Shown here piece by piece: positions 1,655-62,447 of a stretch of DNA of 64,000 bases (position 1 is the stretch's first letter; every line of letters starts with the position of its first letter). Origin of the DNA: Spirochaeta lutea (GTDB lineage: Bacteria; Spirochaetota; Spirochaetia; DSM-27196; Salinispiraceae); NCBI RefSeq assembly GCF_000758165.1, contig NZ_JNUP01000072.1, positions 226,496-290,495 of the forward strand, in the 5' to 3' direction. The notes beneath the pieces are model-generated. The model was not told where the DNA came from and made no database searches. It saw only the letters and a program-made list of their open reading frames with translations. A program made the position numbers and the translations under genes.

Positions 1655-1716
1655 GGTCATAGGAGCCCACGTTGATCCAGGTGCAGGTGTGGGAATAGGT
1701 CGTCTGGCTTTGAAAC

Positions 1717-1736
1717 GTACAACCGTTTGCGCACTA
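1717..1736 (-). repeat. Copy of the TAGTGCGCA terminal-repeat motif
   Basis: The minus strand reads TAGTGCGCAAACGGTTGTAC, 17 of 20 matching the consensus TAGTGCGCAAAAGGTTGTAA. It sits between two convergent genes. Sequence to its left (lower coordinates) weakly resembles the body of the 55.7 kb element, so this may be a decayed copy of the same family. Confidence 0.6.
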
Positions 1737-19691: not shown

Positions 19692-21260
19692 TTATTCTTC
19701 TGACGCCTCGGGGTTCTGGCCGGCAATAAAGCGGCGTGCATGGGAACTTAAAAACACCGGCAGGAACCCAAGCCCGGTAATCAGGCCGGTAACCGTCAGA
19801 ATCACCCTGATAGGAATAACCTCGGCCAGCACGCCCCCCAATGCCATTCCCAGGGGAATCAGACCGCCGCCCAGGGCCCCCATGAGACCGAAGACCTTGC
19901 CCCGCATCTGGGACGGAATGAGGAGCTGCATGGTGGTGCTGATGATGGAGTTTACCACCGCCACCGTGAACCCCATAATGAAGAACTGTGTAAGCATGAC
20001 TGCCCCGGCGTGAGAAAAAAAGATGGTGCTGCGCATTAGGGCGAATAGCGATGCACCGATAATGAAGACCGGCACTTTTTTCGAATGGGGAATGGTAACC
20101 CCCGAGAGGATCAGCAGGGCTGCCACGCTTCCTGCGGTTACTACCGCCATGGCGGTTCCGTACTGGGCAGGCCCTAACCCCGGGCTGCGCTGGAAATAGG
20201 GAAGAAACAGTACCCCTCCCATGGACAGGAAGAAGTTTAGCATACCCACATTGATGAAAAACAGCCCCAACACCGGGGTGTCCCGGATGAACCGCATCCC
20301 CTCCCTAAGGTCCTGAAGGTAATTAAACTCCCGATTCTGGTGAATGACCCGGGGAATCTTCAAAAACAGTTCAGTACCCGCAGAAAATAGGTAGGATATG
20401 CCGTTCACCAGGAACATCACCGGCGCACCCAGAACACTGTATATGACGCCGCCGAGGGAGTTTCCCAAAATACCCGACAGGCTCTCGATCATACCGAAGG
20501 CCGAGTTTCCCTGGAGAAGCCGCTGCCGGTCCACTATGTCGGGAATGCTGGAACGTACACTGGGATCAAAAAAGGCGGCGCAGAGCCCGATGAGCACTCC
20601 GGCAGCGAAAACCATCCACACCTCCAGCCTCCCGGCAAATGCCAGCACCGCCACCAGGGTAATGGCCGTTCCCCGGAGGGTATCCATGAGTACCATGATC
20701 CATTTTCGGTTCAGCCTATCCACCAACACCCCGGCGAAGGGCCCAAGCACCACCCGGGGAACCGTCGACGCCGCCATGAGCGCCCCCATGAGCCCCGTGG
20801 ACCCGGTTACCGCCAGCACCCAGAAGCCCAGGGCAACCTGGTAAAACACGTCGCCCAGGGTGCTCACAGCCTGGCCCTGCCAGAGTAAAATGAAATTACG
20901 GTCCCAGAGGCGCGGCCGGGTCGGCTTGGTTGGCTCTGCTCCGGGGATTTCGGTGCTTCCGGCAGCTCGGAGGGTTTCCGTGGCTCGGGGCGCTTCGGGC
21001 GCTCTGGGCGCTCCGGGCACTTCAGGGGCTCCGGGCGGGGGAGCTACTGAGATTTCTGTGCTTCCTGCAGCTCCGGAGATTTCCGTGGCTCCGGAGATTT
21101 CCGTGGCTCCGGGCGCTTCGGGCACTTCAGGGGCTCCCGGCGTGGGAGCTACGGGGGTTACGAGGTCTACGGTCTGGGGGTTTGCTGTACCTCGGGATGT
21201 GCCGGTTTTACCCTGGGTGCCAGTCTTACTATGAGTGCCGGGGTGATCGGTTTTTTCCAT
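19692..21260 (-). CDS. MFS transporter with repetitive N-terminal extension
   Basis: A 522-aa major facilitator. Residues about 118-515 form a 12-helix MFS carrier (NFILLWQGQAVSTLGDVFYQVALGFWV, VLVDRLNRKWIMVLMDTLRG) of the enterobactin-exporter/MFS_3-like type, probably a drug or metabolite exporter. Residues 1-117 are a cytoplasmic low-complexity tail built from repeats of APEVPGAPRAPEAP and GATEISGATEIS. Such a tail is not normal for the family. The start at 21260 is the first ATG after TATACT at 6 nt and has no ribosome-binding site; a start inside the tail cannot be excluded but no better one is visible. Confidence 0.85.
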   Translation of the reverse strand: MEKTDHPGTHSKTGTQGKTGTSRGTANPQTVDLVTPVAPTPGAPEVPEAPGATEISGATEISGAAGSTEISVAPPPGAPEVPGAPRAPEAPRATETLRAAGSTEIPGAEPTKPTRPRLWDRNFILLWQGQAVSTLGDVFYQVALGFWVLAVTGSTGLMGALMAASTVPRVVLGPFAGVLVDRLNRKWIMVLMDTLRGTAITLVAVLAFAGRLEVWMVFAAGVLIGLCAAFFDPSVRSSIPDIVDRQRLLQGNSAFGMIESLSGILGNSLGGVIYSVLGAPVMFLVNGISYLFSAGTELFLKIPRVIHQNREFNYLQDLREGMRFIRDTPVLGLFFINVGMLNFFLSMGGVLFLPYFQRSPGLGPAQYGTAMAVVTAGSVAALLILSGVTIPHSKKVPVFIIGASLFALMRSTIFFSHAGAVMLTQFFIMGFTVAVVNSIISTTMQLLIPSQMRGKVFGLMGALGGGLIPLGMALGGVLAEVIPIRVILTVTGLITGLGFLPVFLSSHARRFIAGQNPEASEE

Positions 21261-37231: not shown

Positions 37232-37627
37232 GATTACTATCTCCAAACTATCTCCAAGAAAGGGGATTCCGGCTGTATCAGGTCCCGGCTGTTTCCGGCC
37301 CGGTCATCCCCCAAACGGTCGCGCCGGTTCTGGGGAAGGGCTGGTCGACCCATCTCTGCTCCCGGGAGGCAACGCCGCCGCACCCGGGGCACCTACTTTC
37401 TACGCGGGGATTCCACGCCGCCGCGGCTGTACAGTATCAGGTTTATACCCTTTCCGGCCAGAGTCTCGGAAACCATCTTGCAGGGGGTATTACTACGACC
37501 TCCTGCCCCGCACCTACTGTCCTTATTTCTTCAGATACCCGCTTTATGGCGGCTGTTTTTACTACTTCGGTTTCCCGCCCTGCTTCTGCTTCTGCTTCTA
37601 CTTCTACTTCTACTTCTACTTCTACTT
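37232..37627. other. Gene-free gap with a 6-bp microsatellite
   Basis: The 396 bp between the GNAT-thioesterase gene and the CDF gene have no supported gene. The right end contains most of the hexanucleotide array listed next; the rest shows nothing recognisable. Confidence 0.6.
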
Positions 37628-37646
37628 CTAGTTCTGCTTCTGCTCC
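37581..37646. repeat. Hexanucleotide tandem array at the CDF 3' end
   Basis: Eleven 6-bp units of the form T(G/A)CTTC: three TGCTTC, five TACTTC, TAGTTC, TGCTTC and TGCTCC. It spans the last codons and stop of the CDF gene (stop at 37630-37628 on the minus strand). Copy-number change keeps the frame, but loss of the TAG unit would move the stop to the next unit. Confidence 0.9.
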
Positions 37647-38824
37647 GGCTGCCCAGCAGGCTCGCCGGGCAGGGGCTCCAAAGGATCGTGCTGGACCAAA
37701 TCACAATCCTTCTGGGGCTCCACATGGATCGTCACCTGGGTCGCGGCGCCGAACCGGTGGCGCAACTCAGCCTCCAGCTGCACGGTTATACCATGGGATT
37801 CCTGGACGGTCATGGCAGGATGAACCCGGATGTGAAACTCCACAACGATGGCATTTCCTAACCGGCGGGTTTTAAGGTTATGGGGATCATGCACCTTGGC
37901 ATGGGTCCGTACGAGATCTATGATTTCCCGTTTCGTCTCTTCCGGAAGGGATGCCTCCAGAAGCTCCCTCAACCCCGGAAGCACCAGGTCAACCGCCGCC
38001 TTTCCGATAAGAAGGCTTACGACCACTGCTGCAATGGGATCAAGAATCCTCCAGGGATCCCCGAGGAAATAGGCTCCCCCGATCCCCAGGAGCGTACCCA
38101 CCGAGGAAAGGGCATCGGAGCGGTGATGCCAGGCATTTGCCGTAACAGCTGCACTCTTCACCTGGTTCCCAACAGCCCTGGTGTAACGGAACAAGCCCTC
38201 CTTCACCAGGATAGACACCCCCGCAGCGACCAGGGCAAACCATTCCGGCCGGGGCAGGATAACCCCGGCTGCCCAATCCCGGAAGAGATTCACACTCTGC
38301 ACCAGTATACCAGCTGCCACAGCCCCCAGCACAAACCCGATGATTACACTTGCCAGGGTTTCAAACTTCCCGTGACCGTAATCATGGGACCTGTCCCGGG
38401 GTTTTGCTGAAATGGCAATAAACCCGATAACCACCACATCGGTTCCCACATCGGACAGGGAATGCACCGCATCAGCCACCATCGCACCGGAATGTCCCAG
38501 GATTCCTGCAACCAGCTTTCCTGCCGAAAGCAGCAAATTCACCATGAAACCCACCAGGGTTACCCGGTAAATCCGGCGGCTTCGATTCTGGTCCGGCTCT
38601 TGACTCGCTGACCGGTCGCCTTCATGGGGAGACGGTACCGCGTCCTCAGCCCCGGCAGCTATTCCAGCCGCCGCTCCGTCTTGGCGGGACGGTACCGCGC
38701 CCTCAGCCCCGGCAGCTATTCCCGACGCCGCACCTCCGCCCTTGCTTGGCGGCACCTGGGACACACCCCCGGCAGCTAATCCCGCCGCTCGGCGTTCCTC
38801 ATGAATACCCTTGCCCTTTGACAT
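37628..38824 (-). CDS. Cation diffusion facilitator, riboswitch-controlled metal exporter
   Basis: A 398-aa CDF transporter. Residues about 70-285 hold six membrane helices with the metal sites HSLSDVGTDVVV and HRSDALSSVGTLLGI (HxxxD), and about 290-385 are the cytoplasmic metal-binding domain (VEFHIRVHPAMTVQESHGITVQLEAEL). It exports divalent metal (probably Ni, Co or Fe, given the leader) in exchange for protons. Residues 1-68 are an extra low-complexity tail with a 19-residue tandem repeat (GIAAGAEGAVPS). The ATG at 38824 follows GGAGTGGGCT. The leader contains a NiCo-type riboswitch and terminator. Confidence 0.9.
   Translation of the reverse strand: MSKGKGIHEERRAAGLAAGGVSQVPPSKGGGAASGIAAGAEGAVPSRQDGAAAGIAAGAEDAVPSPHEGDRSASQEPDQNRSRRIYRVTLVGFMVNLLLSAGKLVAGILGHSGAMVADAVHSLSDVGTDVVVIGFIAISAKPRDRSHDYGHGKFETLASVIIGFVLGAVAAGILVQSVNLFRDWAAGVILPRPEWFALVAAGVSILVKEGLFRYTRAVGNQVKSAAVTANAWHHRSDALSSVGTLLGIGGAYFLGDPWRILDPIAAVVVSLLIGKAAVDLVLPGLRELLEASLPEETKREIIDLVRTHAKVHDPHNLKTRRLGNAIVVEFHIRVHPAMTVQESHGITVQLEAELRHRFGAATQVTIHVEPQKDCDLVQHDPLEPLPGEPAGQPEQKQN
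38631..38744. repeat. 57-bp tandem repeat inside the CDF gene
   Basis: Two copies of about 45 nearly identical bases (GACGGTACCGCG then a single C/T change, then CCTCAGCCCCGGCAGCTATT) spaced 57 bp apart, encoding a 19-residue repeat in the N-terminal tail. Confidence 0.8.
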
Positions 38825-39033: not shown

Positions 39034-39062
39034 ATTGTAGGTTCCAGAACCCCCTCTGTCAA
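39034..39062 (-). promoter_or_regulatory. Promoter of the CDF leader
   Basis: On the minus strand TTGACA (39062-39057), a 17-nt spacer and TACAAT (39039-39034). Transcription should start near 39027, giving a leader of about 200 nt that holds the riboswitch and terminator. Confidence 0.8.
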
Positions 39063-39140
39063 CCGAGCCTGTTTCGGACTCCTCACCGACCCAGCCGAGG
39101 TTGTACCGGTCTCCCGGGGCCGCATTACGCCTGGCCTCCC
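39061..39140. repeat. 80-bp repeat, copy 1 (partner at 48674-48753)
   Basis: The first 73 bases (from AACCGAGCCTGTTTCGG) are identical to 48674-48746, then one mismatch and six more matches. It lies between the GH31 stop and the CDF promoter, whose -35 box it overlaps by two bases. Confidence 0.92.
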
Positions 39141-39206
39141 CTTCAGGTCTGAATCCGGACTCTCCATACATCCCAGGCGTACCAGGTTAGCCCAGCGGTG
39201 CATCCC

Positions 39207-41567
39207 TCAGACCCGGATCCGCGCCTTCCATACCGGCACCTGAGAACCGGGTACAGGGTTCTTCCCTGGCTTGAATACGACCGGGCTGCCATTACAAAGG
39301 ACGGAAGTCCGGCGGGCCCAAAGGTAGAAATCGAACTCTTGGCCCGCCAGGCTCCCGGATTCTAGGGTGATTTCCATTCCCTCAGCAGTGCTGCCTACCC
39401 TCCAACGGATACCCTCCTGGTGTCGGGTGTACTTCCAGCCGTCAGGCTCGTCCAGGATGTATTCACCGGTTTCAAGGATGGGCTGCCCGGCAGGCACCCC
39501 ATCATCTAACCCTCCGGGATACAGTACGAAGCCAGGGTTGGATAGGGCGACCTGATCACTGGACTGAATGTCCTCTCTCCAGGGCTGAATGGGGAGCAGA
39601 ACCCCGGCCTTTAGATACACCGGGAAGGGATGTTCATCCAGGGAAATCTCCGCCGTTTCAGGTCCGGATAGCTCATGAGGGGTAAAGATTCCGGCCCAGT
39701 CGCCCGGAGGAAGATTGATGGCCCGGGTTTTTTGGCCCGCAGATAATTTCGGAGCCTGAATAAGATGGGGTCCGATATAGTACTGGTCGGCGCAGTGGGC
39801 GGTGTCCGGGTTGAAGGAGCCGTAGATCATGGGCCGGATCAACGGCTCTCCCGCGGAGGTATACCGGATCATCAGCTGGTAGAGATAGGGCAAAAATGTA
39901 TACCGGGCTCGGATTGCCTGGGATATTTCTCCCAGGGTCCGCCGGTCAAACTGCCAGGGTTCCTGGGGTGCCGTTCCCGAGGCGCTGTGGTTCCGGTAAA
40001 TCGGGAACAAAAAAGCAGCCCGGTGCCAATCCAGGGACAGTTCGGCGGTGCAATCGCCGCCGAATCCCCCCACATCCATCCCCGCCATGGGCATTCCCGA
40101 CAAGGACAGACTCAGCACCATTTCGATACCCTTGTTCAGGTGATGGTAATTGGACATATTGTCACCCGTCCACAAGGCTCCCCACCGGGATGACCCCAGG
40201 GACCCGCTTCGGGAAAGCACGAAGGGCCGCCTGTCAGGATAGGCCCGGGCCAACCCCTCCATGGTGGCACGGGTCATATCCCTGGCGTAGTCGTTATGGT
40301 AGGCCTCATGGGGAATGCTGCCCCGGGAAAAGAGCATGTCATCCACAGACGATGAGCCGGTGCTGGGATCGTTCATATCGACCCAGAACCCGGCGAATCC
40401 CCGGGCTGCCAGATCTGCGGCGTTTCTGGACCACCAAGCCCGGGTCTCGGGCAGACTGAAATCGGGAAAGTAACTCGCCCCTGGCCAGACAAACCCCACA
40501 TAGGGCTTCCCCGAGGGATTCAATGAAAAGAGACCCCCAGTACGGGCTTCCTCCACCAGGGGATTCCCCTCTTCGCGCTTCAATGCCGGATCCAGGATGG
40601 GAACAACCCTCCGGCCGGTCTGCCCGAGGGCCAGTAGACGCTGCTCCGCTCCGATAAATCCAGTGGTATTCAGGGTGAAAACCCGGTACTCATGCATGTA
40701 ATCGATATCGAGCCATAACCCGTCACAGGGAATATTCTCCCTGGTGAACCGCCCGGACAGCTCCTCAAGGTCATCCAGGGAACCGTATCCCCACCGGGAC
40801 TGATGGTACCCCAGAGCCCAGAGGGGAAACCGACGGGGTAGCCCGGCGATTCTATTGATCCGGGGAATCAGCTCCTCCAGGGATTCGGCCGCAGCGAGAA
40901 TGCATCGGCCCTTCCGGTCCTCGGGGCCGGTGGCGCCGAGGTAGAAGAAATCCAAATCCACCCCAGGATCCTTTACCCCCTCGATGACCTGTTTTGCCCC
41001 GGTGTCCATAAAAGCAGGGTATCCGCCGGATATAATGAAGGCTATCCAATAGCCACCACTCCGGAGAATCAGTACCGGGAAGCTGGCATACATGGGATCG
41101 GTGGTACCCGACTCCACCTCCGGGCCGGCGAAATCCGCCCAAACATCGGTATTCCAGAACTTCGTCCGGATGCGGCTCTTCTCAAACCCGATGTTCTTTT
41201 CCCCCATCCCGTAGAACCCCTCAATTCCCCCCAAGCGGAAGCTGAACATCCACTTCTGTCCCGAGGTTCCGTAGGGCAGAACGGGGTGGGAGTTCAACAC
41301 CGGAGCTCCCGAGCTATGCCGGAGTATCAGCCCTTGGGCATCCGAATGCTCGAGGCGGAAACGGCCTTCTTCCCCCCCAGTTTGCACCTCGGCATCGCCC
41401 TGCCGCCGGGGCAGGTCACCTAGTTGAGATTCCAAGCCCGGAGACTCCGCCCCGGGTACCGAAATGGCTACCTGGAATACATCGGGCCCGAACTCAGCCA
41501 GGGGTTCTATTTCCGGCTGAGCACTGGGACTAAAATTGAAGGGATGGTCTATCTTATGAAAATACAT
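39207..41567 (-). CDS. GH31 alpha-glucosidase/alpha-xylosidase-type enzyme 1
   Basis: A 786-aa cytoplasmic glycosidase. The GH31 barrel has the nucleophile D397 in GFWVDMNDPS and acid/base D469 in LWTGDN. Other family segments are YGMGEKNIGFEK, LGYHQSRWGYGS, LWLDIDYMHEYRVFTLN and GMPMAGMDVGGFGG. It is the last gene of sugar locus 2 and probably releases alpha-linked glucose or xylose from the imported oligosaccharide. Short ribosome-binding site GAGG before the ATG. Fragments of its 3' region occur at 48.7-48.9 kb. Confidence 0.92.
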   Translation of the reverse strand: MYFHKIDHPFNFSPSAQPEIEPLAEFGPDVFQVAISVPGAESPGLESQLGDLPRRQGDAEVQTGGEEGRFRLEHSDAQGLILRHSSGAPVLNSHPVLPYGTSGQKWMFSFRLGGIEGFYGMGEKNIGFEKSRIRTKFWNTDVWADFAGPEVESGTTDPMYASFPVLILRSGGYWIAFIISGGYPAFMDTGAKQVIEGVKDPGVDLDFFYLGATGPEDRKGRCILAAAESLEELIPRINRIAGLPRRFPLWALGYHQSRWGYGSLDDLEELSGRFTRENIPCDGLWLDIDYMHEYRVFTLNTTGFIGAEQRLLALGQTGRRVVPILDPALKREEGNPLVEEARTGGLFSLNPSGKPYVGFVWPGASYFPDFSLPETRAWWSRNAADLAARGFAGFWVDMNDPSTGSSSVDDMLFSRGSIPHEAYHNDYARDMTRATMEGLARAYPDRRPFVLSRSGSLGSSRWGALWTGDNMSNYHHLNKGIEMVLSLSLSGMPMAGMDVGGFGGDCTAELSLDWHRAAFLFPIYRNHSASGTAPQEPWQFDRRTLGEISQAIRARYTFLPYLYQLMIRYTSAGEPLIRPMIYGSFNPDTAHCADQYYIGPHLIQAPKLSAGQKTRAINLPPGDWAGIFTPHELSGPETAEISLDEHPFPVYLKAGVLLPIQPWREDIQSSDQVALSNPGFVLYPGGLDDGVPAGQPILETGEYILDEPDGWKYTRHQEGIRWRVGSTAEGMEITLESGSLAGQEFDFYLWARRTSVLCNGSPVVFKPGKNPVPGSQVPVWKARIRV

Positions 41568-44243: not shown

Positions 44244-45512
44244 CTACAGCCGGATCCGGGCTGTAGCCTCTTCTTGAGCCAAATCCAGGGCCTCTTTGGG
44301 TGACATCAGTCCGTCGCGAACCTGCTCAATGAGGGTATTCACAATATTGGTGAGCTCGCTGAACTGCTCCAGGGCCGGCGGCTTAACCGCATACTGAAGG
44401 GATTCCACTACAGCAATTTTGTTTTCCGGCGGAGTATCGGAAATGTACTGATCCATGATGGCCGGATCAGCCACGGTGGGCAGTTCCCACTGGGCATCCA
44501 AGCGCAGCTGTACAGCCCGGGGGTCCGATGCCAGGAAGTTCACAAATCGGAAGGTGGCCTCGGGATTCTTGGTGGTAGTGCTGAGTGCAGCCACATTCCC
44601 GAAGAAGTGGGTTGCCTTGGAGGTATTTCCCGGTTCAATCTCGATGCCCCAGGGAAAGTCCACCCGATTTCGAAGATCGGTAAAGGCCCATACCCCGTTT
44701 AACCACATACCCAGCTTACCTTCCACAAAGAGGTCGCCCTCAGGCCGGTTTGCCAGTTGTTCTCGATTCGGCATAACCTCGTGTTTCCACACCCGGTCCA
44801 CCATGTACTGCAGGGTCTCAATATTCTGGGGAGAGTTGATGGTGAATCGGCTGCCATCCTCGGACATCAGGCTGCCGCCGTTCTGCTGAACCACCTTATA
44901 GAACTCCCAAAACTGGATGGGATTAAAGGCGCCCCATACATCATCCCCAAGAGCAGAAATCTTCCGTGCCGCTTCCAGGGAATCATCCCAGGTCCAATCT
45001 GACGTCGGGTAGCCTACCCCGGCCTGATCAAAGAGGTCCTTGTTGTAAATGAGGACAACGGTTGAGAATGACTGGGGTATGGCCATGACCTGGTTGTTAA
45101 AACGAACCGCATCCAGAAGCCCCTCGCCGTAGATGTCCTTACTCATTCCCGTTGAAGCAAACAACTCATCCAGGGGCCGGACCGCACCGCGGATGGCATA
45201 GGCGAGAAACTGCTCCATATTCAGTTCAAAGGCATCCGGAGCGTCCCCCCCGGCGATGCGGGTAACCAGGGTGGTAAAATAGTTGTCACCGTACCCCATG
45301 GATTCCAGCTCAACCTTAATATCAGGATTTTCGGCTTCAAACAGATCCACCATAGCCTGCAGGGTATCCGCGTTCTCCTCTCCCGCGGAAAAGTTTGCGT
45401 AGCGGATTGTTGTAACGCCGCTATCTGCCTCAGAATCACCCCCGGCAAAAACCGGAACGATGAGACCCAACATCAAGAAAACCATCCCGATGGTACGAAT
45501 TCTCAGATTCAT
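44244..45512 (-). CDS. CUT1 extracellular sugar-binding protein 2
   Basis: A 422-aa family 1 solute-binding protein. The signal peptide is IRTIGMVFLMLGLIVPVFAG without a lipobox Cys, so it is a soluble periplasmic protein. The mature part starts GDSEADSGVTTIRYANFSAG and contains the usual AYAIRGAVRPLDELF and LFDQAGVGYPTSDWTWDD. It delivers the substrate of the GH31 enzymes to the permeases encoded upstream. A partial TAGTGCGCA motif lies 44 nt before its ATG. Confidence 0.92.
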   Translation of the reverse strand: MNLRIRTIGMVFLMLGLIVPVFAGGDSEADSGVTTIRYANFSAGEENADTLQAMVDLFEAENPDIKVELESMGYGDNYFTTLVTRIAGGDAPDAFELNMEQFLAYAIRGAVRPLDELFASTGMSKDIYGEGLLDAVRFNNQVMAIPQSFSTVVLIYNKDLFDQAGVGYPTSDWTWDDSLEAARKISALGDDVWGAFNPIQFWEFYKVVQQNGGSLMSEDGSRFTINSPQNIETLQYMVDRVWKHEVMPNREQLANRPEGDLFVEGKLGMWLNGVWAFTDLRNRVDFPWGIEIEPGNTSKATHFFGNVAALSTTTKNPEATFRFVNFLASDPRAVQLRLDAQWELPTVADPAIMDQYISDTPPENKIAVVESLQYAVKPPALEQFSELTNIVNTLIEQVRDGLMSPKEALDLAQEEATARIRL

Positions 45513-45555: not shown

Positions 45556-45569
45556 CCTTTTGCGCACTA
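45556..45569 (-). repeat. Partial copy of the TAGTGCGCA motif
   Basis: The minus strand reads TAGTGCGCAAAAGG, identical to the element terminus over 14 bases; the sequence then diverges. It lies between the permease and binding-protein genes. Confidence 0.6.
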
Positions 45570-48673: not shown

Positions 48674-48753
48674 AACCGAGCCTGTTTCGGACTCCTCACC
48701 GACCCAGCCGAGGTTGTACCGGTCTCCCGGGGCCGCATTACGCCTGACCTCCC
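48674..48753. repeat. 80-bp repeat, copy 2
   Basis: 79 of 80 bases match 39061-39140 in the same orientation. Confidence 0.92.
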
Positions 48754-48806
48754 ATCCCGGCATTCCCGTTAAAAACTGCCCCGGAAGCAGAGCACAGGAC
48801 CTCAGT

Positions 48807-48870
48807 TACACCGGGAAGGGATGTTTATCCAGGGAAATCTCTGCCGTTTCAGGGCCGGATAGCCCATGGA
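48807..48870 (-). pseudogene. Fragment of a GH31 gene
   Basis: The minus strand encodes HGLSGPETAEISLDKHPFPV then a stop; GH31 enzyme 1 has HELSGPETAEISLDEHPFPV at the corresponding place (39617-39674). The DNA matches with about five differences in 60. Together with the 80-bp repeat it marks a degraded copy of the 3' end of a GH31 gene with about 0.45 kb deleted in between. Confidence 0.8.
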
Positions 48871-48880
48871 GAGTGAAGCT

Positions 48881-50204: not shown

Positions 50205-50214
50205 TTGCGCACTA
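50205..50214 (-). repeat. Partial TAGTGCGCA motif
   Basis: The minus strand reads TTAGTGCGCAAC, matching only the outer ten bases of the element terminus. It lies in the 55-bp gap before the TPR gene. Confidence 0.4.
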
Positions 50215-51808: not shown

Positions 51809-51821
51809 TAGTGCGCAAAAG
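51809..51821 (+). repeat. Partial copy of the TAGTGCGCA motif
   Basis: TAGTGCGCAAAAG matches 13 bases of the element terminus and is followed by the ribosome-binding site AAGGAGG of the DinB gene, with no room for a full element. Confidence 0.6.
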
Positions 51822-54439: not shown

Positions 54440-54477
54440 GGTCAATACCTCCGTGTTGGTTCCAATCTAAACCCTTG

Positions 54478-54580
54478 TAGGCAAATGAAGCTATCATTTC
54501 TCACCTGCAACGCTGCTCACAGGGTGTACCCCTAATGAACTTGGCTGTCTCCGGGGTGTAGTACAAGGTTATGTACACTA
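54478..54580. repeat. Full-length diverged copy of the palindromic element
   Basis: About 103 bp. By eye it aligns with the 62.2 kb copy over its length: TTGTAG..GCAAA, CATT.C, TGC.ACGCT, TGTACCC, GGTGTAGT..ACAA and CACTA at the end. The terminal CTA provides the TAG stop codon of the GrpB gene. Confidence 0.6.
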
Positions 54581-55099
54581 CAAATCCCTTAAAACCCGCT
54601 CAAAAAACTCAGTGTATTGAGTTTCTTTCATAGCAACGTATCCAGCCCTATTGTCATCTCCCACGGCGGCTAATATCCGGTTCTTAATGGAATTGTACTC
54701 CGCCACCAGGCCCGGGTCAGCCCGTAACCTGTCGCGAAACCGTATATGCCGATTATACTCCAGATTATCCTTTGTACAAACATAGAGATGGTGGGGGATC
54801 TCATCCAAGAGGCTAATACCATCCCCCCAGCGGTCAAATACCTCCCTGCCGGGGATACCTTGATCACCGACATAATGATATCCCACCGCTTCGAGCTCTG
54901 TTTTTATAACGTGAAAATCAGCCCGGGAAACAATAACCATATCAATGTCAATAATAGGTTTTGCCGCCATGCCGGGGATGGAGGTACTACCGACATGCTC
55001 GATCCCGAGGTACGCAGTGCAATGCTTCCGAAGGTATTCCGCAATTCGGGTGAACATCTCAATCCATTCCACTGTATAGGGGCGTATTACCCGTTCCAT
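54578..55099 (-). CDS. GrpB family protein (nucleotidyltransferase fold)
   Basis: A 173-aa UPF0157/GrpB protein (VEWIEMFTRIAEYLRKHC, IEHVGSTSIPGMAAKPIIDIDMVI, LLDEIPHHLYVC). The nucleotidyltransferase-like motif GSTSIPGMAAKPIIDID is intact; the biochemical role of the family is not settled. The start at 55099 follows GGAGC. The stop TAG is contributed by the end of the palindromic element. Confidence 0.88.
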   Translation of the reverse strand: MERVIRPYTVEWIEMFTRIAEYLRKHCTAYLGIEHVGSTSIPGMAAKPIIDIDMVIVSRADFHVIKTELEAVGYHYVGDQGIPGREVFDRWGDGISLLDEIPHHLYVCTKDNLEYNRHIRFRDRLRADPGLVAEYNSIKNRILAAVGDDNRAGYVAMKETQYTEFFERVLRDL

Positions 55100-55155
55100 T
55101 CGATTCAAGCTCCTCGGTTCTAAAGCCCATCCAGGCCGGCGCCGGAGTCGGCGGC

Positions 55156-55506
55156 TTACCTGAGCAATCCTATCCCCGTTTCCAGATCGCCGACGAAGAG
55201 TACTGTACCTCCCCGGTTGCTTTCGTAGATAAAACTCTTCAGGCTATCGCTTTCAATGCCGGTAAAATCCCCGATAATCATCAAACGTTTCCGGTAATTC
55301 GAAACCTTTTGAAGAATCTCCCCTGCCAGCCCTGACCGCAGGTCAAAGAATGTGTCAGCCAAAGAGTGCTTCTCCATGGCCACTGTATCCGTCCCGCAAT
55401 TCGCCAGAACATCTAAAAAGTCACCAGCGGTGTCAATGCTCTGCCCTTCGGGAAATCGACAGTAAGAAATCTCTGCCTTATGGTTTTTAATGATTCGAAT
55501 ATCCAT
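55156..55506 (-). CDS. DUF4180 protein
   Basis: A 116-aa cytoplasmic protein of the DUF4180 family (QSIDTAGDFLDVLANCGTDTVAMEKHSLADTFFDLRSGLAGEILQKVSNYRKRLMIIGDF). The fold resembles a STAS/PAS-like alpha/beta unit; the function is unknown. Such short proteins are common in accessory islands. Confidence 0.85.
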   Translation of the reverse strand: MDIRIIKNHKAEISYCRFPEGQSIDTAGDFLDVLANCGTDTVAMEKHSLADTFFDLRSGLAGEILQKVSNYRKRLMIIGDFTGIESDSLKSFIYESNRGGTVLFVGDLETGIGLLR

Positions 55507-55847
55507 AGCTACCTCCCCTACCTTCGGTGTACGGCCCCCCGCTTACACCCTATCGACGAGGCGAACAGTCGTGAACACCGCACACTCCCCCCACACCAAG
55601 CATTGCCAGACTCCCCGGCTTGGGTATACTCTACCCGTGAAGCCTCAGGCCCATCAATACCGGTTTACCCCGCGATCCGCGGTTCATTCAATATAAATCA
55701 GGTAACCCCGGGGGGTTACCCGAAAAAAAGAGCGTACACTACGCTAGATAAAGCGGTGCTATTAGGGATACAACCCAGAGATAGCCTCGCCGACATCCGG
55801 CATGATGGTGTACAAGCGTCTGCGCACTACTATATAAGGAGAATGAA
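55507..55847. other. Gene-free gap with a hairpin and one palindromic element
   Basis: The 341 bp contain a perfect hairpin GGTAACCCC-GG-GGGGTTACC at 55701-55720 and the element at 55719-55829. Nothing else is recognised. Confidence 0.7.
55719..55829. repeat. Palindromic element, inverted full-length copy
   Basis: The right end reads TGCGCACTA and the interior (ATACAACCCAGAGATAGC, CTACGCTAGATAAAGCGG) aligns with the reverse complement of the 62.2 kb copy (CCCCAGAGATAGCG, CTACACCAGATATAGCGG). The left boundary is approximate. The small membrane-protein gene starts 18 bp after it. Confidence 0.7.
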
Positions 55848-56210
55848 ATGCAAAACCCCCAAGAAAAGGATGTATTGCCGGCCTACAAGCCCCTGCTGGG
55901 TCTGAGTCTGCTATTTACCATCGCAGCAATTCTGACCCTCATTCCGAATCCCCAGGCAAGCTGGCCCAACCTGCTCGGCTACCGGTCCATCTGCACCTTC
56001 GCGCCCATTGCAACCCTGGCCTGTTGTTTCCTCGCCGGCCTCACCTGTGTAATCCGGGCCCGGCTCTTCGGACCCCGGCGGACGGAGAAGCGGTCATGGC
56101 TGGGGCCGATAATTCTCGGTCTGGTATTCGTTAGCCTCAGTCTCGTCTTTGTACCCGGGTACATCGAGGCAAAGAATCCGGATACCCAGACAAGCGCAAC
56201 CATGGAGTAA
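55848..56210 (+). CDS. Small membrane protein
   Basis: A 120-aa protein with three predicted membrane helices (GLSLLFTIAAILTLIP, FAPIATLACCFLAGLTCVI, WLGPIILGLVFVSLSLVFVPGY) separated by basic loops. No family recognised. AAGGAGAATGAA precedes the ATG, directly after a palindromic element. Confidence 0.65.
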   Translation: MQNPQEKDVLPAYKPLLGLSLLFTIAAILTLIPNPQASWPNLLGYRSICTFAPIATLACCFLAGLTCVIRARLFGPRRTEKRSWLGPIILGLVFVSLSLVFVPGYIEAKNPDTQTSATME

Positions 56211-56255
56211 CCTGGAGGCTGAGGGCTGGGGGATGGTTCTGCCTTCTGCCGGCTC

Positions 56256-56582
56256 TCAGAAATCACCATCCTTATTCAAGGAGATAAACAGTCCTCTTTT
56301 ACGGGTTTGAATCACTACCCGTTTCTCATACTCTTGCCTTAGGTGGGGGGGAATATGTCCGGCCTGCCAGGCGTATTCTTCCCGAACCCGCTGTTCAGCC
56401 TGGTCCGGCTGGGATGCCGCTATCGCCCGGAGTGCATAGAATACCCCGAAGGCGTGCTGGGCGACATGGACCGTCGCCACCGCCTGGCCGGCTGCCCGGG
56501 CGGCATTATACGCCGGGAGATTCCCCTTCGCCTCCCGGGCAGCGGCGTGGGCCGAAAGGGAGGCTCCCCGGATTACCGGCAT
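56256..56582 (-). CDS. Imm5-like immunity protein, N-terminally truncated
   Basis: A 108-aa protein resembling the C-terminal part of Imm5-type putative immunity proteins (ASLSAHAAAREAKGNLPAYNAARAAGQAVATVHVAQHAFGVFYALRA). Full members carry about 60-70 further N-terminal residues. The frame starts at MPVIRG with only GGGTGATTTTTCC upstream, 27 bp from a palindromic element end, so an insertion or rearrangement probably removed the 5' part. No toxin gene is nearby. It may be an inactive remnant. Confidence 0.55.
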   Translation of the reverse strand: MPVIRGASLSAHAAAREAKGNLPAYNAARAAGQAVATVHVAQHAFGVFYALRAIAASQPDQAEQRVREEYAWQAGHIPPHLRQEYEKRVVIQTRKRGLFISLNKDGDF

Positions 56583-56609
56583 GGAAAAATCACCCTTTTA
56601 ACCCATATG

Positions 56610-56629
56610 TAGTGCGCAAAAGGTTGTAA
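56610..56629 (+). repeat. TAGTGCGCA element end, probably partial element
   Basis: TAGTGCGCAAAAGGTTGTAA is a perfect match to the terminal consensus and continues CATT as in the 62.2 kb copy. Downstream GGCGACACC and ATGGTGTA (to about 56690) weakly match the rest of the element, but the far end is not recognisable. Confidence 0.75.
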
Positions 56630-56731
56630 CATTGCACCCCGGCGACACCAACAATTCCGAACCCTTAAAGATGGTGTAAAATCAAAAGATTCCTGCCCCG
56701 GGATACTCTATTATAGCTACAAGGAGACGAG

Positions 56732-58021
56732 ATGAACGACAGACAGATTGTCGCCGGGATGATTGCCTGGATCGAGAAGAACCTGACCGCCGAGGTGGAT
56801 GCCAGGGCCCTGGCCGAACACAGCGGCTACTCCTTAAACCGCCTGCGGCAGAAGTTCTTCAATGTGACGGGGGACACCCCCAGCGGCTATCTGCGGAAAC
56901 GGAAACTGACCGAGGCGTCCAAGGAGATTCTGGCCGGCCGCCGGATTGCCGATGTCAGCCTGAAGTACGGCTACAGCTCCCAGGATAATTTCACCACCGC
57001 TTTCAGGAGCTACTTCGGGATTCCCCCGGGAGAACTGTATCAGATCGACTCCAAATACAAACGGTTTATCAGCCGATTACGGGAGGAATTCAGTATTATG
57101 GAAATCATTCGATTACAACAACCGCCGTTCTGTTCTACCATGATGGGGTGCGTAAAGGGCACCGCGGACTACTTCGACCTGGATCTATCACCACCTATGC
57201 TCTTCGGGCTCTCCGGGCACGCCTTTCTGATTAACATCCACCATGAACTATGCCCCAGCAGTCCCTACGTGTGGAACCACGAACCATTTCTCAAGCTCCT
57301 TCACAACCTGGGGATCAACCATACCGGGGACCGGAGTTTCGACAAATCCACCCCCATGGATGAACGTAGGAAAACCGAGGCCGAACTAAAGGCCCATCTG
57401 GAGGGCGGCAACCTGGTGATGCTTACCTTCCTGGAGCATCAGCTGGTGAACGGCTTCGACGAGGAGGGATTCAGCTTCCTGAAACCCTGGGAGGACGAGT
57501 GCGAGGTTCAACTCCAGCGCCTGACCTTCGGGACCTGGGAGGAAGCCCTGGAAAAAGAAGGCTGGGTCATGTTCGATCTGTTGGAACGGGGTGAACTCAA
57601 GACCAACGTGTTGTCTAACACCCGGGAGGCCCTCAGTTACGCCCTTGACCTCTTCCGGAACCCCGAGGCCCACCAATGCGAAGGCTACCGGGTAGGATTC
57701 GGGGCTTACGAAAACTGGATTACCCACACCAAAAAGGCCGGGGGCGATAGCCACGGGAACTGGTGGAACGGAATGGTCTGGAAAGAATGCCGAGACATGG
57801 CTTCAGCCTTCTTCCTCGAACTGGAAGAGCTCCTGGACATCCCCGGGGGCAAAGAACTGTGCCGCAGCCTCGGGGAAAACTACCGGAGCCAGGCAGCACG
57901 CTTCGACCGGATCAAGGAACGCGCCCTGGACGATGGAGAACGGATCCGCCTCCTGGAGGAGAACCGCAGCGCCGAGGAAGAGGCCGTTTCGGCCATGGAA
58001 ACACTCCTAGGATACTGCTAA
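56732..58021 (+). CDS. AraC regulator fused to a C39/BtrH-like domain
   Basis: A 429-aa protein. Residues 5-105 are the AraC double helix-turn-helix (ARALAEHSGYSLNRLRQKFFNVTGDTPSGYLRKRKL, YGYSSQDNFTTAFRSYFGIPPGELYQ). Residues about 125-300 resemble papain-fold BtrH N-terminal/C39-like domains (MLFGLSGHAFLINIHHELCPSSPYVWNHEPFLKLLHNLGI), with acidic and aromatic-rich C-terminal helices to 429. The catalytic Cys is not clearly in place (GLSGHAF), so it may be a binding domain. AAGGAGACGAG precedes the ATG. Confidence 0.75.
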   Translation: MNDRQIVAGMIAWIEKNLTAEVDARALAEHSGYSLNRLRQKFFNVTGDTPSGYLRKRKLTEASKEILAGRRIADVSLKYGYSSQDNFTTAFRSYFGIPPGELYQIDSKYKRFISRLREEFSIMEIIRLQQPPFCSTMMGCVKGTADYFDLDLSPPMLFGLSGHAFLINIHHELCPSSPYVWNHEPFLKLLHNLGINHTGDRSFDKSTPMDERRKTEAELKAHLEGGNLVMLTFLEHQLVNGFDEEGFSFLKPWEDECEVQLQRLTFGTWEEALEKEGWVMFDLLERGELKTNVLSNTREALSYALDLFRNPEAHQCEGYRVGFGAYENWITHTKKAGGDSHGNWWNGMVWKECRDMASAFFLELEELLDIPGGKELCRSLGENYRSQAARFDRIKERALDDGERIRLLEENRSAEEEAVSAMETLLGYC

Positions 58022-58064
58022 GACGAACCACGTGTGAGGAAGGAACGGGTTATTCTATCGGCGG

Positions 58065-59003
58065 TCATGGAACCCCCTTAACCGCCCTAAAGCTGAGATA
58101 GCCTTGTTGATTGGTCTTCCGTTTTTCAAACACACCGCCGTGATAGACGACAATGTAAGCGGATAAATCTGATTGCGGCGAGGTTTGGGCGGTCCAGTAG
58201 TAGATGACCTTGGAATGCACATCCCAGAGGGGCGATTCTTTATCCGGGGCTTTCCGGTACACCGCCTCCCCCTGATCCTGGCGCCATTCCCCGCCGGCAT
58301 TCTGCCCATGTATGCTCATGGACCGGACCGCTTCATCCACCGTGGGAAGGCGCCAGATGTTCTGGGGAGATTCCATGACTGAGAGCCCGTCCGCCGATAA
58401 GTGCCTGCAGATCTCTCTGGCCTCCTCCCAGGATACACCCCTATCCGGCCATCCCGGCCCCCGGGGCGCCCAAGCCAGGGTTACGCCGTTACCCTGGATA
58501 ATCCTCGTCCCCAGGTTCCGGTCATCCACCCGTTGAGAAACCTTAATGCCCTGGGGAACCGAGATGGCGCCGATGATGAGCAGGGGAATAAGGATGATCA
58601 AGCGGTAGGCCCACCGCTTTGGCCGCGGATCACCCCAAAAGTACAGAATTCCAAGACCGGCGAAGGGGATGATGATCAATAGCCCTAACACCGAAAAATT
58701 TGCACCGGAAAAGAACCAAATGCAAAAACCACCGATCAATACATGGAGGGCCAAGCCGATCCGTTTCCACTGGAGAGAAACCACGGCTAATACCACAAAT
58801 AGAATAGTGAACAGCAGGTATTGGAATACAAACATAAACAGGTTTTCCCCCAAGGATGTGGAGTACCAACCCTCATGAAAATTCTCGAAAGCGCCCCAGT
58901 AGGCCCAGAGGCTGGAAAACAGGATGGTAATGGCCACCCCGATCCATCCCGCTATGTTCTTCTTCGTAGCGGTAGTCATCCTAGTGTTTCTGGGTTCTGT
59001 CAT
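58065..59003 (-). CDS. Membrane protein with DUF1566-like C-terminal domain
   Basis: A 312-aa protein. Residues about 15-165 contain five membrane helices (IAGWIGVAITILFSSLWAYW, FVFQYLLFTILFVVLAVVSL, LALHVLIGGFCIWFFSG, VLGLLIIIPFAGLGILYF, YRLIILIPLLIIGAISV). Residues about 190-312 resemble the DUF1566/Lcl C-terminal fold (GNGVTLAWAPRGPGWPDRGVSWEEAREICRHLS, WRLPTVDEAVRSM, YYWTAQTSP). It is 9 bp after the nitrilase gene and shares its direction. Function unknown. Confidence 0.75.
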   Translation of the reverse strand: MTEPRNTRMTTATKKNIAGWIGVAITILFSSLWAYWGAFENFHEGWYSTSLGENLFMFVFQYLLFTILFVVLAVVSLQWKRIGLALHVLIGGFCIWFFSGANFSVLGLLIIIPFAGLGILYFWGDPRPKRWAYRLIILIPLLIIGAISVPQGIKVSQRVDDRNLGTRIIQGNGVTLAWAPRGPGWPDRGVSWEEAREICRHLSADGLSVMESPQNIWRLPTVDEAVRSMSIHGQNAGGEWRQDQGEAVYRKAPDKESPLWDVHSKVIYYWTAQTSPQSDLSAYIVVYHGGVFEKRKTNQQGYLSFRAVKGVP

Positions 59004-59012
59004 GGGGGTGAT

Positions 59013-59960
59013 TCACCTCCCTCCTGCCTGGGTTGATGGCCCGGGTTTTCGGTTCAACCCAAAATCCGGCCGGATGAAGGGTTCGTCAATGGTTTCTGAG
59101 GTCAGGATGGCATACTTCTGAGGGTACCGGTAGGCATTGCCATGAACCTCGTGTTTTCGGTAGTCCCGAAGCTCCTTAAGGGGAAAGGCAGCCATGTAAA
59201 TCCCTTCGGATTCTCCGGCCTCCACCACTAGGGTATCCCGGGATCCCGGTTCCCCAGGCCGGTATGCGATGCCGTCGAAGGCGGATGAATGGCCGTTGCA
59301 GTCCGGCTGCCCCGCAGGATAGTTAACCGTGGCGATCCCCACCATATTCTCAAAGGCCCGCGCCCGGAGTTGGGAGAGCCGGTTAATTTCCATGGGGCAG
59401 GCATTGGGAACCAGAATCAGTTCGGCGCCCTTCAGCATGAGAATCCGCGCGCTCTCGGGAAACTCCCGGTCGTAACAGATCATGGCGCCAATCTTCACCG
59501 GTCCCCTGGCAGTATCCAGCTCCGCAACGTAAAAATCATCCCCGGGAGATAGCCGGCACTCGTCCCCGAAATCGCAGGTATGCACCTTGGCGTAGGATAG
59601 GACCATCCGTCCGAAGCGATCGAATAGGCAGAGGGTATTTCTCGGAAGGGGTTCGTGTTTCTCCAGAAGGGTAATACCGATGGCCATGTCCAATTCCCGG
59701 GCAAGGGTCCCGAACCGGGTTACAAAGGGACTGCCGGTTTCAATGGCGCTCTGTTTCAAGGCCTGGAAATCTTCCGGAATCCGGTATCCCACACTCCACA
59801 TTTCCGGAAACAGGGCGATATCGGCGCCCTGCTCCTTGGCCCGCCGGCACGCCTCTATTCCCTTCTGCAGATTGCCCTCCAGAGTCTGCTCGGGTAGAAT
59901 CTGCAGGAGCGCGATGTTCATAGTTTCGCCGGGTTCTGTAGACGTTGACTTGGTGTTCAT
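59013..59960 (-). CDS. Carbon-nitrogen hydrolase (nitrilase superfamily)
   Basis: A 315-aa amidase-type enzyme with the Glu-Lys-Cys triad E53 (FPEMW), K125 (YAKVHTCDF) and C162 (ICYDREFPE), in the order of the superfamily. N-carbamoylputrescine amidase and omega-amidase relatives are possible. The start at 59960 follows GGAGGTCG; an internal ATG at residue 14 lacks a site. It begins 21 bp after the deacetylase stop. Confidence 0.88.
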   Translation of the reverse strand: MNTKSTSTEPGETMNIALLQILPEQTLEGNLQKGIEACRRAKEQGADIALFPEMWSVGYRIPEDFQALKQSAIETGSPFVTRFGTLARELDMAIGITLLEKHEPLPRNTLCLFDRFGRMVLSYAKVHTCDFGDECRLSPGDDFYVAELDTARGPVKIGAMICYDREFPESARILMLKGAELILVPNACPMEINRLSQLRARAFENMVGIATVNYPAGQPDCNGHSSAFDGIAYRPGEPGSRDTLVVEAGESEGIYMAAFPLKELRDYRKHEVHGNAYRYPQKYAILTSETIDEPFIRPDFGLNRKPGPSTQAGGR

Positions 59961-59981
59961 GGTTTTCGACCTCCGATCTTA

Positions 59982-60689
59982 TTATTCCCTGTAATCCAAC
60001 CTGACAAACCGAAACCCCCGTTCCCGCAGTCCCAGTATAATCAACTCCACGGACTCAACGAACTCCTGGGCATCAGAATCCTTACCATCATGCAGATAGA
60101 TAATCGATCCGGGCCGGGTATTCTCGATCACCTCCCTGGCTACGTTCTGGGCATCATAGGGGGAATGATACTCCGACGGCGGATCATAGCTACCGGTAAC
60201 GAGCACCTTATCCATAGAGCGCAGGACCCATGGCAGAACCACGAATTTCGAGGTATAGGGCGGCCGGAAAAACCTGACCTCCCTCTGCCCCAAGGATTTG
60301 ATCAACCCGTCGGTTTTAACAATCTGATCTCTGACAAAAGACGGCGATCGAAACATGAGCCGCGGGTGATCGTAGGAATGGTTCCCGATCAAATGCCCCT
60401 CTTCGTACACCGCCCGGGCAATCTCCGGGTGCTGTTCAATATTCTTTCCCAGCATGAAGAATGTTGCTTGTATTCCATGGTGATTCAACAGCCCGAGCAA
60501 CCCAGGCGTCCGTTCTTTACCCGGCCCGTCGTCGAAGGTCAGGGCGACCACCCTCTCATCCCCCGGGATGGTATGAAGAGGCCTCACAAACAGGGCATTC
60601 TGCCACGGACGGCTGTACAGGAACGCGGCACCTCCCAACAGTAAAAGGAGGATCAAGAATAGCGATATACATTGAAGGACTTTTTTCAT
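59982..60689 (-). CDS. Polysaccharide deacetylase (NodB domain)
   Basis: A 235-aa exported or membrane-anchored enzyme: N-terminal signal/anchor ISLFLILLLLLGGAAFLYS, then a NodB domain with metal motifs LTFDDGPG (catalytic DD) and HSYDHPRL (H..H). It probably removes acetyl groups from chitin, peptidoglycan or a surface polysaccharide. Confidence 0.88.
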   Translation of the reverse strand: MKKVLQCISLFLILLLLLGGAAFLYSRPWQNALFVRPLHTIPGDERVVALTFDDGPGKERTPGLLGLLNHHGIQATFFMLGKNIEQHPEIARAVYEEGHLIGNHSYDHPRLMFRSPSFVRDQIVKTDGLIKSLGQREVRFFRPPYTSKFVVLPWVLRSMDKVLVTGSYDPPSEYHSPYDAQNVAREVIENTRPGSIIYLHDGKDSDAQEFVESVELIILGLRERGFRFVRLDYRE

Positions 60690-60750
60690 TCCCCCTCCCT
60701 ACTGATCAGTATTGTCCACTTTGGAATGTTCGTTCTGCTTCCTCAAAATT

Positions 60751-61764
60751 CTAACTACCCGGGTTATGCATTATTTCCGACATGCTCCAATTATAGCCCT
60801 CAAAATCTACGGTGTTTGTAAACTGTACGACCACAGCGTCGATATCGGGATGATAGTTGGCAATGGTCTGGTACCCCGGTATCAAGCCGGTGTGCCCGTA
60901 CTCATAGATAGAAGGGTAGATATTCTGTTCTGTTGCGTCGCGGAAGACAGAGCCATCGTTGAGTGCGCGGATGAACTTGCTTAGGTCTTCCGCGGTTGCC
61001 AGGATGGAACCGTTGTTAACGGTTTTCAAATCGGCATCATAGCCCACATAATACCCGCTCATGACGTCCTCCATGTCCACTTCGGTAATAGATCCAAAGG
61101 TTCGAGTCAAATTCAGGGGCTCGAGAATCGCTTCACGAATGTATTGAAAATGATCGTACCCGAGAACGCGGTCCATTATTTTGCCGAGTAAGAGGTAGTT
61201 CGTATTGGAATAGGCGTAGCGCTCGTCGGGCTTAAAATCCGCAGGCAGGTTCAGTACAAGGGCGAGTTGTTCATCCGCCGTCTCTTTCGGATTAACCCAA
61301 TACATGGAGGTGTCGGTATAGTTTGGAATCCCGCTCCTATGGGTTACCAGCATGTTCACGGTGATGGTGCCGGCATGCTCGATTCTACCGATCAGTTCAG
61401 GTAGGTAATCTCCCAAGGTTTTTTCTAAGGACAATGATCCATCCCGGACCAATTTTGCAATCCCAACGGCCGTGTACAGTTTTCCGACACTGGCGATTTT
61501 AAATAGGGCATCCGGGTCAGCCGGGGTTTTACGCACTCTGTTCTTGTAGCCGGAAGTATAGGTTTCGAAGTGATTCCCATGGTACTGCACCCCCACAACG
61601 ATTCCGTCAAACCCGTAATCCCCGGCCCTATCAACCTGCTCCTGAATGGTTTTCGGCAGCGGCTGAATCCACGCGGTTACCATGGGCCATGGAACGAAAA
61701 CCAAGGAGATGAGCGTCCCCAAGAATAAGCCGATTCTAATGATGATTTTTATTTTACGATTCAT
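60751..61764 (-). CDS. Serine beta-lactamase-like protein
   Basis: A 337-aa penicillin-binding-fold hydrolase with an N-terminal anchor (IRIGLFLGTLISLVFVPWPMV). Catalytic motifs: S92-V-G-K95 (ASVGK), Y185-S-N187 (YSNTN) and HTGLIPGY. It could be a carboxypeptidase, esterase or class C-like enzyme. The ATG at 61764 overlaps the GFA stop by 11 bp. Confidence 0.85.
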   Translation of the reverse strand: MNRKIKIIIRIGLFLGTLISLVFVPWPMVTAWIQPLPKTIQEQVDRAGDYGFDGIVVGVQYHGNHFETYTSGYKNRVRKTPADPDALFKIASVGKLYTAVGIAKLVRDGSLSLEKTLGDYLPELIGRIEHAGTITVNMLVTHRSGIPNYTDTSMYWVNPKETADEQLALVLNLPADFKPDERYAYSNTNYLLLGKIMDRVLGYDHFQYIREAILEPLNLTRTFGSITEVDMEDVMSGYYVGYDADLKTVNNGSILATAEDLSKFIRALNDGSVFRDATEQNIYPSIYEYGHTGLIPGYQTIANYHPDIDAVVVQFTNTVDFEGYNWSMSEIMHNPGS

Positions 61765-62173
61765 CGGTGCCTTCGTTCGGCAGGGCATCATACTGAGGGC
61801 TCTTCTCAAGATTATGATCCCAGGTAGCTCTTTCTTGTAGGTAGATATGCCCGGTAGGAATCATTTCGAGCTCCGTATCCAGACTTCCTGCAGGTACAAC
61901 CAGCAAGCTTCCATCCATTTGGAGATTAGGCAGCGCCGAGCTGCAGTCGGGGCAGAAGCTCTTAATATGACCGGAGTTATTATGGTTATAGGTTATGACT
62001 CTTTCCGCCCCCTTCAGCCATTCCAGGTGTGCTTTTGTTGAAAACAGATTTGCCGCATGAGCCGAACCGGTATCCTTCCGGCAGGATGCGCAGTGGCAGA
62101 GAAAGAACTGTTCAAACTCCCCAGTTACCTCGTAGGTTATGCTTCCGCAAAGACACGAGCCTTGATGTTTCAT
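61754..62173 (-). CDS. GFA-family glutathione-dependent formaldehyde-activating-like protein
   Basis: A 139-aa zinc protein of the GFA/CENP-V fold: CLCGSITYE, CHCASCRKDTG and FCPDCSSALP supply the cysteines. Most members are of unknown function; formaldehyde activation is proven only for a few. GGAGGCAAC precedes the ATG at 62173. Confidence 0.88.
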   Translation of the reverse strand: MKHQGSCLCGSITYEVTGEFEQFFLCHCASCRKDTGSAHAANLFSTKAHLEWLKGAERVITYNHNNSGHIKSFCPDCSSALPNLQMDGSLLVVPAGSLDTELEMIPTGHIYLQERATWDHNLEKSPQYDALPNEGTDES

Positions 62174-62218
62174 GTTGCCTCCAATCCAAGCTATCAGTGT
62201 AGCAGGGTTTTCTTTTTG

Positions 62219-62324
62219 TAGTGTGCAAAAGGTTGTAACATTCCCCATTTGCGACGCTATCTCTGGGGCCTGTACCCGGGCAACCCCGCTATATCTGGTG
62301 TAGTTTACAACCTTTTGCGCACTA
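62219..62324. repeat. Palindromic element, complete copy with 20-bp terminal inverted repeats
   Basis: A 106-bp element. The ends are TAGTGTGCAAAAGGTTGTAA and (reverse complement of the right end) TAGTGCGCAAAAGGTTGTAA, 19 of 20 identical. TA flanks both ends. The interior is GC-rich and not coding. It resembles a MITE or ERIC-type intergenic repeat; a TA target duplication would fit IS630/mariner-type transposition. Confidence 0.8.
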
Positions 62325-62447
62325 TATTTTCAGTTCAGTCCTCCCGAATCAAATTCCTGAATACCCGTACCCCCTTCACCGTCCCATGGTAAAGGTTACG
62401 TAAACCACTGGTATGACATTACTGGAAGGGTGTACAGGAATGGGCAA

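Follow-up and report, generated by a model that had tools for sequence, protein, structure and literature searches.

The window analysed here, which is a stretch of 64,000 nucleotides of the Spirochaeta lutea genome (3.53 Mb in 69 contigs; window G000:C69:226496-290495), contains recurrent palindromic segments, and the question raised by this locus is what kind of element these represent and by what means they were dispersed. We consider it very probable that they are MITEs—mobile, non-autonomous inverted-repeat elements—dispersed by an insertion sequence (IS) that resides in the genome and shares their ends, through a 9-bp staggered insertion. What we observed directly comprises the ends common to both elements, the 9-bp duplication, the number of copies and their preference for intergenic positions, the ends of the resident IS, and a homologous transposase; the mobilization in trans by the transposase of that IS would, for its part, proceed by either a cut-and-paste or a copy-paste mode.

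Copies in the window and in the genome

The best-preserved copy in the window is the one at 62219..62324 (+ strand), in whose 106 bp the conserved terminal inverted repeat (TIR), the body, and the second TIR are intact (110.6 bits, E = 1e-24), and which served as the query and was the top match of a BLAST search of the genome. This copy is bordered by the variable dinucleotides TG on the left (62217..62218) and TA on the right (62325..62326), both of which are placed outside the target duplication by the offset analysis given below, and then by the left and right 9-bp target duplications, TTTTCTTTT (62208..62216) and TTTTCAGTT (62327..62335), which are identical to each other at 7/9 positions. 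The preliminary description had listed three full copies: that one is intact, but the copy at 55716..55829 (− strand; 33.6 bits, E = 6e-6) is decayed, with a good left TIR and an eroded right one, and the segment at 54475..54580 (+ strand), adjoining the ORF 54578-55108, is doubtful, since its score (14.2 bits, E = 0.31) is not significant alone and it may be either a heavily decayed copy or a chance likeness. The partial copy at 56610 proved to be a left half of ~41 bp (56610..56650, + strand; 26 bits, E = 4e-4), with only the first ~41 model positions aligning well. Among the solo ends described, two retain 13–14 TIR bases in the absence of a body: the one at 45561 (TAGTGCGCAAAAGG, 45556..45569, − strand, with a TIR match of 14/14), ~57 bp upstream of the ATG of the ORF 44244-45512, and the one at 51809 (TAGTGCGCAAAAG, 51809..51821, + strand, with a TIR match and a covariance-model E of 7.4), 30 bp upstream of the ATG at 51839. 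The other two fared less well: the solo TIR or possible truncated copy at 1685..1736 (− strand), whose TIR has 1 mismatch, is at the noise level of the covariance model (E = 1.4), and the one at 50206 consists of the 9-mer alone.

That 9-mer, TAGTGCGCA, does occur seven times in the window as exact matches, as had been approximately counted, but the expectation is 0.14 (the mean of 100 dinucleotide-preserving shuffles, with a maximum of 2), and not ~0.5. At the scale of the genome, the 14-mer TAGTGCGCAAAAGG with at most one mismatch was found 279 times versus 0 for its reversed control, and BLAST returned ~40 full copies. Further copies emerged from a genome-wide search with a covariance model for which 52 copies had been aligned, which search gave at least 149 near-full-length copies, this count being a lower bound set by the 150 candidates scored, and thereby bore out the existence of a dispersed family of mobile inverted-repeat elements. 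Among those at least 149 listed copies the conserved part measures 100–107 bp, mostly 104–106 bp, and the family accounts for ~0.45% of the 3.5 Mb. The median divergence of the copies from the consensus is 18%, so that, to judge from sequence divergence, the family has probably been amplifying over a long time. No real copy was found in the 60 relatives searched, all of which belong to other genera than the host, two matches of 22–29 bp being at chance level only; nor was any copy found in IMG/VR or in the contigs of the GTDB genomes, from which set the host genome and those near it may be absent. The MITE family is large, real, and lineage-specific, and has a resident partner IS.

Target duplications and the identity of the element

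The mobile unit, of ~109 bp and devoid of genes, has the form NN-TAGTGCGCAAAAGGTTGTAAC, followed by a body of ~63 bp and then by GTTTACAACCTTTTGCGCACTA-NN; the consensus runs from TAGTGCGCAAAAGGTTGTAAC through a variable centre of ~45 bp to CCGCTATATCTGGTGTAGTTTACAACCTTTTGCGCACTA, and a TIR of ~20 bp, TAGTGCGCAAAAGGTTGTAA, is present at both ends. Conservation is mostly ~90% at the ends and in the asymmetric right arm, and mostly ~40–80% in the centre. When the left and right flanks were compared across all offsets, a single peak appeared at 13 (identity 0.525 versus ~0.25), at which offset the central 9 positions match at 0.60–0.74, whereas the dinucleotides bordering TAGTGC at either end do not (0.17–0.30); the duplication is thus of 9 bp, with two extra bases borne by the element at each end. 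At least 7/9 target bases match in 75 of the 149 listed copies, versus 1.3% with randomly re-paired flanks, while the 74 copies with a poorer match are as expected of old insertions and are also where the MITE model is weakest. Furthermore, more diverged TIRs go with weaker target matches (Spearman −0.24, P = 0.004), which correlation is the one expected for decay. Insertion favours targets with AT-rich ends, approximately of the form TAAG-N-N-TT(A/T).

Both the 9-bp duplication and the 2-bp offset are confirmed by a natural empty site: the copy at C64:86836-86941 is nested inside an older, reversed copy, and its flanks, once joined with the removal of one 9-bp repeat and both dinucleotides, align in register with other copies, no gap being seen where they meet.

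The terminal TA had previously been considered compatible with an IS630/mariner-type MITE. Most copies do start with TA and end with TA, and Correia elements begin similarly, as would suit IS630/Tc1-mariner MITEs of the Correia or RUP kind that duplicate TA. The terminal TA, however, is internal to the MITE, with the flanks matching at offset 13 in only the 9 central positions, beyond two further variable bases; the nested copy shows a 9-bp repeat plus dinucleotides instead of a TA duplication; and the resident IS that shares these ends has a transposase related to IS1-like proteins. Since the target duplication is of 9 bp and lies 2 bp off the TIR, these are not IS630/mariner MITEs, which model is refuted by the 9-bp duplications together with the nested empty site and retains practically no credence.

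If, alternatively, the copies were not mobile DNA but functional structured RNAs or mRNA-stability hairpins under selection, comparable to ERIC or BIME, their location would be suggestive: only 14% of the listed copies are situated for the most part within ORFs of 100 codons or more, versus 87% of random positions, so that ~86% are intergenic, and copies adjoin gene 3' ends (149) more often than 5' ends (107). The transcribed copies, moreover, would fold into very stable hairpins, of about −35 to −54 kcal/mol. The substitutions nevertheless speak against this proposal, since most of those in the TIR arms (267) are pair-breaking, whereas 19 are both-sided paired changes versus 12.1 expected, which excess is due mostly to one subfamily position. 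In addition, the RNAalifold covariation term was −0.13, the APC-corrected mutual information revealed no helix, and the copies had no match in Rfam; we therefore see no convincing evidence that an RNA structure has been under selection, and, with the target duplications showing insertion, regard the proposal as very improbable. The likeness to ERIC-type elements noted in the preliminary description did not hold either, the 9-bp duplications arguing against it and the body lacking compensatory changes; indeed, the ERIC/BIME/REP class, in which there is no target duplication, is ruled out by those duplications. Integron attC sites were likewise set aside, as the copies are dispersed, occur in both orientations, and have target duplications.

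Correia, RUP, and ERIC elements are all dispersed, palindromic, intergenic sequences of ~105–130 bp, the first two with TA targets and IS630-type ends, and the last with, to our knowledge, no partner IS; the 9-bp duplication of the host MITE fits neither Correia/RUP nor ERIC. The assignment to the MITEs, in contrast, stands: the elements are short and non-coding, are dispersed in at least 149 copies, possess TIRs and a target duplication of the fixed length of 9 bp, and coexist with an IS having the same ends.

The resident insertion sequence and its relatives

No transposase is present within the window, as had been stated; yet the genome holds a matching IS at ~10 places, mostly at broken contig ends. 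Solo TIRs at contig ends led us to this full-length IS with the terminal inverted repeats of the MITE: among the 46 contig ends inspected, 10 stop in its left end (TAGTGCGCAAAACCCTGTAACTTTTTACAAACCTYCCCCCACCCTTGAAGCAAACCCTATG...) and 10 in its right end (TAGTGCGCAAAAGCCTGTAACTTTTTTGTGCC...), which proportion of ~20/46 helps to explain where the assembly breaks. Beside the dinucleotides, the C68 and C46 ends, which form a left/right pair, have the 9-mer TAACGATTT in common (9/9), and for the pair formed by the C42 and C21 ends the target duplication matches at 8/9. In the right end lies the coding sequence for a transposase C-terminus, which ends in VPKYISA. The interior of the IS was not found in the present assembly, as expected for a collapsed repeat, and in the host this IS would contain an intact transposase gene.

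Full-length homologues of that transposase, of 380–405 aa, occur in Salinispira pacifica (G002), a complete genome from the same family as the host, and the named homologues come from Spirochaetes/Treponema assemblies, the wider family of the transposase being characterized by cysteine pairs near the N-terminus and by the conserved blocks ADGFESF and TDxHxxY. The Salinispira homologue matches only weakly both the IS1 family profile (E = 4e-4; 20 bits, below the curated cut-off of 100) and the IS1/IS1595 Zn domain (20.3 bits, below the cut-off of 28), and because both scores are below the curated cut-offs we refer to the transposase as IS1-like and not as IS1; the structure model of the same homologue had a mean pLDDT of 48.9, too low for reading a DDE/RNase H fold. 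The Salinispira IS has the TIR (T/C)AGTGCACCAAAGCTTGTAA, with two copies exhibiting 9/9 duplications set off by 2 bp, and the IS of the genome G050, of 1237 bp (TAGTGTCCCAAACCGTGGGG), has duplications of 9/9 and 8/9.

In the mechanism that we propose, the transposase of the resident IS, with its ~10 copies and the same TIR, would most likely bind the ends of the MITE and then excise or copy it, after which step the MITE would be joined to a target whose two strands are cut 9 bases apart and the repair by the host would leave a 9-bp direct repeat on each side; the copies that survive would be mainly those between genes.

A comparable association is seen in Salinispira, whose genome has 91 sites close to the end of its own IS, many of them in inverted pairs ~131–141 bp apart. 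The 20 MITEs fetched from it measure 133–144 bp and have the same TIRs as the Salinispira IS; their ends, CAGTGCACCAAAGCTTGTGAA, are of the same kind as those of the host MITE and also have variable outer dinucleotides, most often TA at the left end and CA at the right one. These elements are, however, longer than the host MITE, have another body, and are mostly older copies. In their flanks offset 13 was only marginally the best (0.34, level with offset 8), and 5 of the 20 have 7–8/9 duplicated bases. A weak likeness between the bodies from the two genera, located around ATATCTGG (best score 8.1 bits; 12 matches in 20 real elements versus 5 in 400 shuffles), is only suggestive of homology. 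In the Salinispira MITEs a hairpin lying 5' of CATATCTG seemed compensatory by eye but was discarded, the best stems averaging 5.5 versus 5.05 when shuffled. The Salinispira pacifica genome paper (PMC4511686) contains no report of this MITE family. The IS lineage appears to have generated MITEs in two genera, so that an under-annotated IS1-like lineage of spirochaetes would have produced many-copy MITEs in at least two of them.

With respect to known systems, members of the IS1 family produce target duplications of ~9 bp, and ISAba12, the partner of MITEAba12, belongs to the IS5 family. The present lineage is like IS1 in the duplication of ~9 bp, as seen in its best copies, and differs in its TAGTG-type TIR, its variable terminal dinucleotide, and its transposase of 380–405 aa. 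By size and duplication length the nearest published parallel is MITEAba12 of Acinetobacter (PMC6382973), a 113-bp non-autonomous element that has TIRs in common with a co-resident IS and 9-bp target duplications. Its ends, GGCTTTGTTGCACAAA, are different from those of the host MITE, and the excerpt on which we draw reports no variable dinucleotide; moreover, compared with MITEAba12, the host MITE has a high copy number and a partner transposase of another lineage. In a limited open-access search of the literature we found neither the host MITE family nor its IS1-like partner nor the fast-changing dinucleotides; MITEs as such are a known kind of element.

Terminal dinucleotides and neighbouring genes

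Close sister copies are alike in the body and in the end dinucleotides (GA..CA / GA..CA; GG..TC / GG..TC) and have different target duplications, and a tree of the copies requires 45–53 dinucleotide changes versus 61–73 for shuffled labels, which results indicate that the dinucleotides travel with the element. The duplication base adjoining the dinucleotide is, on the same tree, as random as when shuffled. Though partly inherited, the dinucleotides change 6–13 times faster than the body of the MITE: in pairs of copies at least 95% identical, these positions differ in 23–45% of the comparisons versus 3.6% for the average element column and 23% for the fastest single one. Full-length insertion sequences of other spirochaetes behave similarly: in G050 half (50%) of the dinucleotide positions differ among six copies that are ~99% identical across the 870 bases aligned for comparison, and the Salinispira copies, 97–98% identical, likewise vary there; the G007 and the G002 type-1 end patterns, with copies too few or badly bounded, were left out of this comparison. 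A copying of the dinucleotides from the target was rejected, there being no match to the continuation of the target past the duplication, and an avoidance of complementarity between the left and right terminal bases was weak (P ~0.03–0.04) and is not claimed.

The fast change may mean either that the last two bases are loosely recognized or that they are actively rewritten upon transposition. According to the latter, tentative proposal, to which we give somewhat less than even weight, the IS and MITEs of this lineage alter the dinucleotides at their own ends when they transpose, so that these bases are inherited with the mobile unit but often rewritten; if true, the rewriting would imply an end-processing step, in which 2-nt single-stranded ends or an intermediate joined end to end might be involved, and we know of no description of such processing for IS1-type elements. 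With inherited, fast-changing dinucleotides beside a fixed 9-bp duplication, the end-processing chemistry of this lineage is directly testable, and annotation tools that require the duplication to be flush with the TIR will miss these elements.

For neighbouring genes, some of the copies or solo ends might in addition have come to serve as promoters, as terminators, or as a source of stop codons, which role would be compatible with their being MITEs but which we consider unlikely. A TTTACA is present in the right arm, and the solo ends of 13–14 bp lie 30–57 bp upstream of start codons; against a promoter function, the right ends face gene 3' ends more than 5' ends (80 versus 48), and the outward promoter scores had no clear excess over flank-shuffled controls. 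As to stop codons, the preliminary description had a copy supply that of the GrpB gene, which instance depends on the segment at 54475, itself doubtful; the effect as such is minor but recurrent, the terminal TAG closing 6 of the 8 ORFs that end inside MITE copies.

Nesting of the IS and older terminal repeats

At the start of contig C60 (stretch L187) and at the end of C68 (L289), the resident IS sits within or beside older ends that resemble the terminal inverted repeat common to that IS and the MITE, as exemplified by the TAGTGCGTAAAACAATGTAACGATTT preceding the IS left end in C68; these elements therefore nest in one another.

Other repeats and an assembly gap

The assembly is also broken up by multi-copy repeats other than the MITE-partner IS. 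Two such repeats were seen again and again at many contig ends (C22, C38, C45, C46, C60, C63, C66, C67, and C69), as well as near 314-1300 of L228 (C46:1-6000). Sequences of the first finish in ...AAAAGGTTGCTTAATC, the terminal part of an ORF resembling, on visual inspection, an IS256-type transposase; those of the second finish in ...AATTGTACACCAAC. The run of Ns at C62:23263-23438 (L149), an assembly gap with a partial MITE copy on either side (n = 2), probably hides MITE sequence.

Similar stretches and tandem repeats within the window

Two stretches recur at 83-95% identity with a spacing of 9.2-9.6 kb (39061-39147 / 48674-48760 and 39592-39687 / 48783-48878), which suggests a segment that was duplicated or gene-converted. 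Short tandem repeats consist of a CTACTT/CTGCTT array at 37562-37656 and a 105-bp unit at 20938-21147, whose agreement in length with the MITE is probably a mere coincidence.
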